Assembly: GCA_902775735.1 (NCBI GenBank)
Contig: CACYNH010000001.1
Span: forward strand, 62,001 to 126,000
Direction: 5' to 3'
Length of the DNA: 64,000 bases
Source of the DNA: an uncultured Erysipelotrichaceae bacterium
Lineage (GTDB): Bacteria > Bacillota_I > Bacilli_A > Erysipelotrichales > Erysipelotrichaceae
In this document: positions 35,459-50,473 of the stretch, piece after piece
How the letters are laid out: each line of letters starts with the position of its first letter
Numbering within the stretch: the stretch's first letter is position 1
Translations under genes and position numbers: made by a program
Notes under the pieces: model-generated
Database searches by the model: none
Seen by the model: only the letters and a program-made list of their open reading frames with translations
Told to the model about the DNA's origin: nothing

Positions 35459-35712
35459 AAAAAAGACGTCCTCACAAGGGACGTCTTAAACGTGGTTCCA
35501 CCCGGATTCACCGGTTCCTCACGGAAACCGGCCTCATGAAGTACAGTCATACTTCCGTGCTGTAACGTGCACCCACGTCGTTCCCTACTGGCTTCGCGTT
35601 CGGGAGCGCGGCTCCGGGATGTGTTTCCGCAGGACTGATTCCGCTTCCTTTTCAGCAGCCGGAAGCTCTCTTATCGGAACAGGAAACTGCGTACTCTTTC
35701 CCTTCAGCGCCA
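35459..35712 (-). promoter_or_regulatory. T-box leader of the his operon, specifier CAC (histidine)
   Basis: Read on the minus strand. The T-box core CGGGTGGAACCACG (about 35488-35504) is followed by a terminator stem AAGACGTCC/GGGACGTCTT (35463-35471, 35478-35487) with a T6 run. Stem I shows AGTAC on the 5-prime side, a GAGAG element, and a loop like GGCTGCTGAAAA. GTTTCC pairs with GGAAAC and GGGA with TCCC; between them the specifier position reads CAC (35623-35621) followed by A. CAC codes for His. Uncharged tRNA-His should stabilise the antiterminator and turn on hisZ-hisE. Confidence 0.9.
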
Positions 35713-35729
35713 TTTTTATGATTGATACA

Positions 35730-45435: not shown

Positions 45436-45444
45436 CTTGAATCG

Positions 45445-45528
45445 TGCCCGTGGCCGGGCTCGAACCGGCATGGTGTCGCCACCGGCAGATTTTGAGTCTG
45501 CTACGTCTGCCAATTCCGTCACACGGGC
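45445..45528 (-). tRNA. tRNA-Leu (CAA)
   Basis: 84 bases, type II tRNA. Acceptor GCCCGTG pairs with CACGGGC, discriminator A. The anticodon arm is GCAGA-CTCAAAA-TCTGC, anticodon CAA. A long variable arm (CGGTGGCGACACCATG region) and a T arm CCGGTTCGAGCCCGG are present. CCA is not encoded. Confidence 0.96.
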
Positions 45529-48435: not shown

Positions 48436-48463
48436 AAAAAAGATGGACGCTCTCCATCCATCT
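48436..48463 (-). promoter_or_regulatory. Terminator-type attenuator in the ankyrin/EF-G2 leader
   Basis: Minus-strand stem AGATGGA/TCCATCT (48463-48457, 48447-48441) followed by TTTTT, 43 bases before the ankyrin start. The stop codon of a 34-codon frame (48464-48462) overlaps its first arm. With few other genes to end here, it looks like conditional termination of the operon it precedes. Confidence 0.6.
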
Positions 48464-48566
48464 AAAAAACAATTCCGGATTTTGGTTCAACCCTGCCTAA
48501 AAGACCGCGATCCTCCGTGTTCTTTTCTGACACAATTCCAATCAAAAGTTCCTTATGTACAACCAT
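48462..48566 (-). CDS. Putative leader peptide ORF (34 aa) of the ankyrin/EF-G2 operon
   Basis: 34 codons, starting MVVHKELLIGIVSEKN and ending KSGIVF. CGGAG lies 11 bases before the ATG. The frame lies between a putative promoter and the terminator hairpin, and its stop codon touches the hairpin. A ribosome paused at the end would block the first arm and allow read-through. No homologue recognised; coding status is an inference from position. Confidence 0.45.
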   Translation of the reverse strand: MVVHKELLIGIVSEKNTEDRGLLGRVEPKSGIVF

Positions 48567-48614
48567 ATTATTTAAAACTCCGATCTTCCAAAGGCTGAAA
48601 CTTTACCTACATAC

Positions 48615-48642
48615 ATTTTATCGAAAACTCTCTTCAGTTCAA
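48615..48642 (-). promoter_or_regulatory. Promoter of the ankyrin/EF-G2 leader
   Basis: Minus-strand TTGAAC (48637-48642), 16-base spacer, TAAAAT (48615-48620). It lies in the 313-base non-coding stretch 48393-48705, which otherwise holds the leader ORF and attenuator. Confidence 0.5.
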
Positions 48643-49545: not shown

Positions 49546-49623
49546 GGCGGCTATGGTGAAGTTGGTCAACACACTGGATTGTGGCTCCAGCACTCGTGGG
49601 TTCGAGTCCCACTAGTCGCCCCA
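49546..49623 (+). tRNA. tRNA-His (GTG)
   Basis: 78 bases including the His-specific extra G at position -1 (49546) opposite discriminator C and an encoded CCA. Acceptor GCGGCTA pairs with TAGTCGC. The anticodon arm is CTGGA-TTGTGGC-TCCAG, anticodon GTG. T arm GTGGGTTCGAGTCCCAC. Confidence 0.97.
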
Positions 49624-49661: not shown

Positions 49662-50417
49662 TTATTCCTCACTGTCAACTTCTTCGGCAGGCTGCGGATT
49701 CATCAAAGCGCGCAGGTACGCGGTGATCTGTGAGGTTTCATCAAGCACTGCCTCTTTGTCTGTGTTATAGGAATCCACGGACATGTAGAGCTGGAAGGTG
49801 CCGTAGGTTTTTGCCATGGTCAACAGTTCCAGATGGGAGCCGTTCACTGCCAGCTCGGCCAGATAGGGAACTTTCGTGCTGTCCGGGGAACGCAGGCTGA
49901 CTCCTTTGTGATCTTTCACATCGATAACTCTGACATTTCTGAGCAGACAGCCGGTAATGGGAGTTTCGGAGCGCTGGTTCACTGTCACGAAAACATCCGC
50001 TCTCTGTCCCGCTTCAATGCCGCCGAGCATTGCCACATCCACTTCCATGGAGAAGGCGACCTGGTTTTCCTTGAGCTGGGCAGCGGCGTGATCGGGCAGT
50101 TCGCTTTCCTCATACAGCATTGATTTATAGAACGGGGAGCCGGCCGGGATCATCCCCTGGATTTCGGTATACTTTCCGATGATATCCTCCTTCTGCGTAT
50201 AGGCGTGATCAGCCAGATAGCGGCCCGAGATCCTGACCGGAATCAGATCCGCTTCGGTGATTTTTGTGCGGGGAGAGATGTCACGGGAAGCGATATATGT
50301 CTGACACAGGTCCAGCTTCGCCCCGACATAAAGGCGGAAGAGGAACAGGTTGACTAATAACAGTGCGGCTGCGCAGAGGGCTGCCGCGGCAGCCTTGGCG
50401 ATGAGTTTCTTTTTCAT
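49662..50417 (-). CDS. CpaB/SAF-domain membrane-anchored protein
   Basis: 251 residues from the ATG at 50417 (AGGAGG 8 bases upstream). One N-terminal membrane helix (about 8-30) is followed by a SAF domain, YIASRDISPRTKITEADLIPVRI, and a CpaB-like region with EVDVAMLGGIEAGQRADVFVTV. CpaB/RcpC proteins support Flp/tad pilus assembly outside the membrane. No other tad or flp gene is in the window, so it is an orphan here. Transcribed alone. Confidence 0.75.
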   Translation of the reverse strand: MKKKLIAKAAAAALCAAALLLVNLFLFRLYVGAKLDLCQTYIASRDISPRTKITEADLIPVRISGRYLADHAYTQKEDIIGKYTEIQGMIPAGSPFYKSMLYEESELPDHAAAQLKENQVAFSMEVDVAMLGGIEAGQRADVFVTVNQRSETPITGCLLRNVRVIDVKDHKGVSLRSPDSTKVPYLAELAVNGSHLELLTMAKTYGTFQLYMSVDSYNTDKEAVLDETSQITAYLRALMNPQPAEEVDSEE

Positions 50418-50473
50418 GGATGATGCCTCCTGCTTTTTTATTTCCTTCTTTTTCCGTGATTCCACGAAAAAAA

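Follow-up and report, generated by a model that had tools for sequence, protein, structure and literature searches.

The window analysed here, a 64-kb stretch of DNA from an uncultured Erysipelotrichaceae bacterium, carries on its minus strand an operon in which a gene for an ankyrin-repeat protein is followed by a gene for a paralogue of EF-G, and ahead of this operon lies a short open reading frame that ends on an intrinsic terminator. An earlier note on this DNA had listed a promoter, a CGGAG site, a 34-codon frame whose stop lies on the first arm of the terminator, the ankyrin gene 43 nt farther on and the EF-G paralogue next to it, and all of these elements were confirmed in the sequence. 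The features are as follows.

49428-48706, minus strand: YgjP-like metallopeptidase gene, upstream and outside the unit (Pfam YgjP-like, 3.7e-40; adjacency varies among relatives)
48708-48695, minus strand: cre-like box (CcpA/LacI-family palindrome; weak match in the window, strong in relatives)
48642-48615, minus strand: sigma-70-type promoter TTGAAC-N16-TAAAAT (pattern match)
48582-48578, minus strand: SD-like CGGAG of the leader ORF (from the sequence; a GGAG-type SD in most relatives)
48566-48462, minus strand: leader ORF, ATG to TAG, 34 codons plus stop, MVVHKELLIGIVSEKNTEDRGLLGRVEPKSGIVF (open frame and stop position kept across relatives)
48504-48489, minus strand: motif conserved at the nucleic-acid level, TCTTTTAGGCAGGGTT, a candidate NusG-type pause site for RNA polymerase (41 nt upstream of the hairpin)
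48463-48441, minus strand: intrinsic terminator hairpin AGATGGATG-GAGAG-CGTCCATCT, 9 bp with loop GAGAG (first arm overlaps the leader stop)
48440-48436, minus strand: T-run (T5) of the terminator (from the sequence)
48406-48401, minus strand: SD AGGAGG of the ankyrin gene (from the sequence)
48392-47724, minus strand: ankyrin-repeat protein gene, 222 aa, first in the operon (Pfam Ank_2, 3e-65)
47705-45633, minus strand: EF-G paralogue, 690 aa (NF009381, 857 bits)

The last two bases of the leader TAG form part of the first arm of the hairpin, an overlap of 2 nt, and the ankyrin gene starts 48 nt past the hairpin and 43 nt past its T-run. The spacing between the SD and the start codon of the leader is long in this window, at 11 nt. 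Among the neighbouring genes, a tRNA-Leu(caa) gene lies just downstream of the EF-G paralogue (45444-45528, minus strand), and upstream of the metallopeptidase gene are a tRNA-His(gtg) gene on the opposite strand (49547-49623, plus strand) and a gene for a CpaB/RcpC-like Flp pilus assembly protein (49662-50465, minus strand). A search of the leader with Rfam covariance models, including those for T-box elements and riboswitches, gave no cis-regulatory match there; elsewhere in the window, a T-box leader (RF00230, 118.8 bits) is found at 35474-35716 on the minus strand. A search for phage DNA gave no match.

Might such an arrangement have arisen by chance? Taken singly, promoter matches (4 versus 3.5 expected) and terminator matches (9 versus 5.6 expected) are near chance level in this region, but the arrangement as a whole is not. 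A scan of the whole 64-kb window for a short ORF with a hairpin at its stop and a gene behind it returned this single occurrence. Among relatives (Erysipelotrichaceae MAGs and Lactimicrobium massiliense, with the genus of the source genome taken as Lactimicrobium), a strict leader rule requiring an ATG, an SD, 18-48 codons and a stop within -10..+6 of the arm was satisfied in 76/108 loci; dinucleotide shuffles gave 2.65 on average and never more than 7. The leader arrangement is thus neither a product of chance nor private to the source genome.

We sorted 118 loci by their ORF and hairpin, 58 of them from the genus Lactimicrobium and 60 from other genera of Erysipelotrichaceae. By automatic classing, an ORF is coupled to the terminator in 56/58 genus loci and 50/60 loci of other genera, a total of 106/118; likewise, an ORF with an SD whose stop lies less than 27 nt from the hairpin, a threshold taken from a study in Escherichia coli (PMC4824070), is present in 106/118 loci. 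Within the genus, the stop overlaps the arm in 44 loci, lies within the hairpin in 7 and just upstream of it in 4, and in one the frame runs through; in the remaining 2 the automatic rule finds no ORF, yet one with a weak SD can be seen. The corresponding numbers in the other genera are 22 overlapping, 19 within the hairpin and 9 just upstream, with 7 loci classed by the automatic rule as lacking a terminator and 3 as lacking an ORF. In five loci of other genera (L177, L178, L196, L206 and L224), the ankyrin and EF-G genes are present and the automatic test detects no terminator at the usual place; in the examples L177, L178 and L206, it is invisible by eye as well. Because the terminator is absent by test and by eye in some of these loci, the attenuator proposed below can probably be lost.

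The position of the stop codon is also conserved. An overlap of exactly 2 nt (+2) between stop and arm occurs in 64/102 leaders, versus 4/66 in a control set of long ordinary genes with a hairpin close to the stop (Fisher p 1e-14), and all three stop codons are in use (TAA in 52 leaders, TGA in 26 and TAG in 24). Within the genus, the start codon, the SD and a length of 33-34 codons are kept. Hairpin and T-run are both conserved, and the terminator stem contains approximately 98-100% standard pairs at each position across the family, with many double changes. A promoter score of at least 9 is reached in 79% of leaders versus 26% of shuffles, and the median distance from the -10 element to the leader ATG is 42 nt. 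The check proposed in the earlier note, an alignment of the leader frame across related genomes, therefore came out in favour of the leader: the open frame is kept, the stop is fixed and the stem covaries. On this comparative evidence, the leader is kept as an anatomy rather than as a sequence, while the peptide, the hairpin sequence and the neighbouring genes have changed.

The encoded peptide presents a different picture. The pN/pS ratio of the leader, calculated from 17 independent pairs, is 0.85 (CI 0.73-1.01), versus 0.063 for the ankyrin gene in the same pairs; selection thus maintains the open frame and the stop at the hairpin and hardly the peptide itself. No leader peptide shared between genera was found, and neither position-wise conservation nor pN/pS revealed a conserved stall sequence.

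The sole stretch conserved inside the ORF in the genus is TCTTTTNGGCGGGGTT, and this element (TCTTTTNGGCGGGG) starts 41 nt before the hairpin. This distance to the arm is observed in 44/57 leaders, and the distance to the start codon is more variable. In the window, the motif TCTTTTAGGCAGGGTT has one match versus 0.01 expected, and the combined pattern of motif and hairpin occurs once each in 18/70 genomes, always at the coordinates of this leader. The third codon positions of the motif are fixed while the amino acid varies (CTT/GTT/ATT; GGG/AGG/GTG/CGG), and its free base is the very one that swaps Phe and Leu; for these reasons, it is not a peptide motif.

Read instead as a pause signal, the motif is T-rich at -11..-6 (TNTTT; the first T of TTNTTT varies), with a pyrimidine at -1 and a G at +1; G+1 to G+3 are kept at the nucleotide level, and the G-run is missing in many genera. 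NusG was not found in the incomplete source genome, and we examined the NusG of relatives instead; the protein of the genus bears RNTPGVTGF, including the asparagine-threonine pair. We take the RNTPG of this protein to be the recognition site matching N81/T82 of Bacillus subtilis NusG. In B. subtilis, these two residues recognise TTNTTT, and both the position of the NusG motif and the general pause rule of Y-1 G+1 have been described (PMC12288461); the T-rich position and Y-1 G+1 of TCTTTTNGGCGGGG fit this pattern, a resemblance in sequence alone. The motif fades in distant genera: an EM motif search in the family settled on the SD site, and when the family was scanned with the genus matrix instead, TNTTT was commonest at -55..-33, in 20/50 leaders versus 2-6 farther upstream. 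Moreover, no pause hairpin is predicted upstream of the T-run (z 0.0). Because of the fading and the lack of a predicted pause hairpin, we regard TCTTTTNGGCGGGG only as a candidate NusG-type pause.

In attenuators of the trp and vmlR type, an upstream structure competes for the arm of the terminator. When the truncated leaders of 108 loci were folded and compared with shuffles, the first arm was found to pair upstream less than in the shuffles (z above 1.5 in 1/108 loci and below -1.5 in 17/108). A switch of this type was rejected, as no antiterminator upstream of the arm was detectable in these loci, and the ribosome itself therefore remains as the candidate switch.

What does the leader precede? 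The EF-G paralogue is present in 62/70 genus genomes, as judged by a count of high-scoring matches. The ankyrin gene lies just upstream of it in 60/60 relative loci examined, and other genera have the two genes in the same order (60/60 loci). The ankyrin gene was detected in 177/244 genomes of the order and 49/72 genera, and all of the matches listed fall in Erysipelotrichaceae; in a sample of the phylum, the EF-G paralogue passes E 1e-185 in Erysipelotrichaceae only (16/195 genomes). The G3 motif of the paralogue reads DTPGY, not DTPGH, with one DVPGY variant type and Tyr in 45/45 orthologues, and the other EF-G of the source genome retains DTPGH. The change from His to Tyr makes a loss of GTPase activity possible and is suggestive only: EF-G-2 of Thermus thermophilus (chain 1wdt) has Tyr at the same place (PGY) and hydrolyses GTP, while EF-G-2 of Mycobacterium smegmatis is without ribosome-dependent GTPase (PMC3150367). 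Bacteroides offers a suggestive parallel: carbon limitation induces its EF-G2, which is described as allowing translation independent of GTP (PMC10294740, PMC6989115). Against the Bacteroides EF-G2 model NF058620, the paralogue scores 563.5 bits, below the curated cut-off of 1000 bits. The PDB chain 7uvp_A, deposited as TetQ, comprises 718 residues and has DCPGS at G3, without the G3 histidine; it is possibly Bacteroides EF-G2 under another name, its length being close to that of the EF-G2 model (717) and not to that of TetQ (638).

A cre-like box matching at least 9 of 10 positions is present in 32/56 genus loci and 38/60 loci of other genera, versus 0.5 expected in shuffles. In the genus, it lies approximately 80-90 nt upstream of where transcription is estimated to begin, and in many other genera it runs into the -10 region of the promoter. 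These boxes suggest that the operon may be under carbon control.

Taken together, we consider it likely that the leader acts as a translation-dependent transcription attenuator of the type found in pyrBI and in pil1 of Streptococcus gallolyticus. RNA polymerase would transcribe the leader, probably pausing at TCTTTTNGGCGGGG, and during the pause a ribosome could begin translating the leader and close the gap. If this ribosome then reached the stop codon of the leader, or still sat on it, as the hairpin was being made, it would mask the first arm, the terminator could not fold and the polymerase would read through into the ankyrin and EF-G-paralogue genes; if the ribosome did not arrive in time or had already left, the hairpin would form and transcription would stop. 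The sequence of the peptide would be irrelevant, and translation as far as the leader stop would be what counts. Candidate signals are the speed of the polymerase or the level of NTPs, the supply of ribosomes, and slow release or recycling at the stop.

We infer leader translation, pausing, ribosome masking and readthrough alike, and the earlier suggestion that a ribosome at the end of the leader blocks the terminator is well supported by the anatomy and by precedents (PMC3894217, PMC4824070). In S. gallolyticus pil1, expression is switched on by leader ORFs whose stop falls inside the terminator or 4 bp short of it, and translation is needed (PMC3894217). In E. coli, the efficiency of a terminator drops from approximately 90% to below 10% when a stop codon 5 bp away is occupied by a coupled ribosome, and spacings of more than 27 nt abolish the effect; pause sites are the means by which short leaders, that of pyrBI among them, keep ribosome and polymerase coupled (PMC4824070). 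Because the polymerase outruns the ribosome in B. subtilis (PMC9226507), such coupling is not assured in Erysipelotrichaceae. As to the idea that stress-induced stalling turns the operon on, a ribosome masking the hairpin at the stop is retained in our model, but the sign of the response is uncertain: when translation is slowed with fusidic acid, termination rises at terminators adjoining stop codons (PMC4824070), which makes it unsafe to assume that stress switches the operon on. By analogy, slower translation may even reduce its expression, and to switch it on the delay would have to fall precisely at the stop.

Several other readings of the leader were weighed. The earlier note had likened it to the leaders of ABC-F and ribosome-protection genes, in which the nascent chain halts the ribosome under an antibiotic or stress (tlrB/msrD/vmlR); an EF-G paralogue that eases stress on translation would be a fitting product. 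The combination of leader, terminator and translation-factor product does have the general layout of ABC-F and methylase leaders (PMC9226507, PMC6851288), and 39/50 genus leaders have Phe as their last sense codon. This TTT, however, sits within a T-rich stretch and precedes the stop in just 15/51 leaders family-wide; the peptide is near-neutral with nothing in common between genera, the sole conserved inner motif lies at the nucleotide level, and there is no antiterminator. The almost unconstrained peptide speaks against a sensor of the arrest-peptide or antibiotic type; pN/pS and position-wise conservation led us to reject a leader of the ermC/tlrB/msrD type, and we hold nascent-chain arrest in general to be improbable. 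The same pN/pS value and the lack of a sequence common to genera make it highly improbable that the leader is a functional microprotein with its own terminator and an operon expressed by leakage, despite the start, SD and length conserved within the genus. Equally hard to credit is the possibility raised in the earlier note that the hairpin simply ends the metallopeptidase transcript and that the operon has a separate promoter after it. The metallopeptidase gene is directly upstream of the leader in 32/53 genus loci, but in the other 21/53 an extra stretch of approximately 0.9-1.3 kb intervenes and the leader is retained, as it is in other genera; the promoter sits before the leader, and the overlap of stop and arm would be left unexplained. 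Synteny and the promoter ahead of the leader ruled this reading out.

Two further proposals are special cases of the translation-dependent attenuator. In one, which we consider possible though rather unlikely, slow release or recycling at the leader stop would keep the hairpin open, and a shortage of release activity, or of the recycling activity that is the task of EF-G and RRF, would induce the EF-G paralogue; the placing of the stop at the arm does not depend on which of the three codons is used, and in tlrB it is release that ends the interference of the ribosome with termination (PMC6851288). In the other, a GTP analogue of pyrBI, low GTP would lengthen the pause before GGGG, the ribosome would catch up and a possibly GTP-sparing EF-G would be made. 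The nucleotide-level conservation of G+1 to G+3, the DTPGY motif and the cre-like boxes are in keeping with this proposal, as is the Bacteroides EF-G2, described as allowing GTP-independent translation and as induced when carbon is limiting (PMC10294740, PMC6989115), but the G-run is gone in many genera and the Tyr-bearing EF-G-2 of T. thermophilus hydrolyses GTP (PMC3150367); we regard it as doubtful.

The attenuator reading has a wider bearing. An EF-G paralogue appears here to be gated by translation itself, possibly as a feedback loop; the design is kept over the whole family, and an uncharacterised operon of common gut bacteria gains a testable regulator. One might speculate further, though as a complete scheme we think it unlikely, that this is a family-wide energy-sensing attenuator in which the T-rich/G-run pause measures GTP, the ribosome opens the terminator, and a GTP-sparing EF-G is made together with a dedicated ankyrin partner. 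If this were true, translation would adjust its own GTP cost.

How does this leader compare with known systems? Among the titles listed by literature searches on EF-G/fusA2, ankyrin, leaders and attenuation, none reports it. Control of an EF-G paralogue has, in the accessible portions of the sources, been described elsewhere only at the promoter, in Bacteroides fusA2. This gene likewise encodes an EF-G paralogue with signs of promoter-level carbon control; it is under the activator BT4338, and those portions make no mention of a leader attenuator (PMC6989115, PMC10294740). By score, its product belongs to another subfamily, and 7uvp_A has Ser where the paralogue studied here has Tyr. The tlrB and vmlR leaders of B. 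subtilis likewise combine an upstream ORF, an intrinsic terminator and a translation-related gene with a NusG-type T-rich pause motif, of which the present leader has a candidate (PMC6851288, PMC9226507); they rely on drug stalling on the upstream ORF, an SD-sequestering hairpin and, in vmlR, an antiterminator, whereas the present leader has neither a conserved stall motif nor an antiterminator. In pil1/pil3 of S. gallolyticus, as here, the stop is at or in the first arm and the peptide is secondary, and translation to the stop destabilises the hairpin as we propose for the present leader (PMC3894217); pil1 is phase-variable through GCAGA repeats, whereas our leader lacks such repeats, has a stop fixed family-wide and precedes a gene for a translation factor. 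E. coli pyrL-pyrBI also places a short ORF over the terminator and, as in the scheme proposed here, uses catch-up pauses and ribosome masking instead of a competing hairpin (PMC4824070). That system responds to UTP, and its terminator lies inside the leader gene of 135 bp, whereas in the Erysipelotrichaceae leader a run of U4 is followed by G4 in the motif and the stop codon overlaps the first arm.
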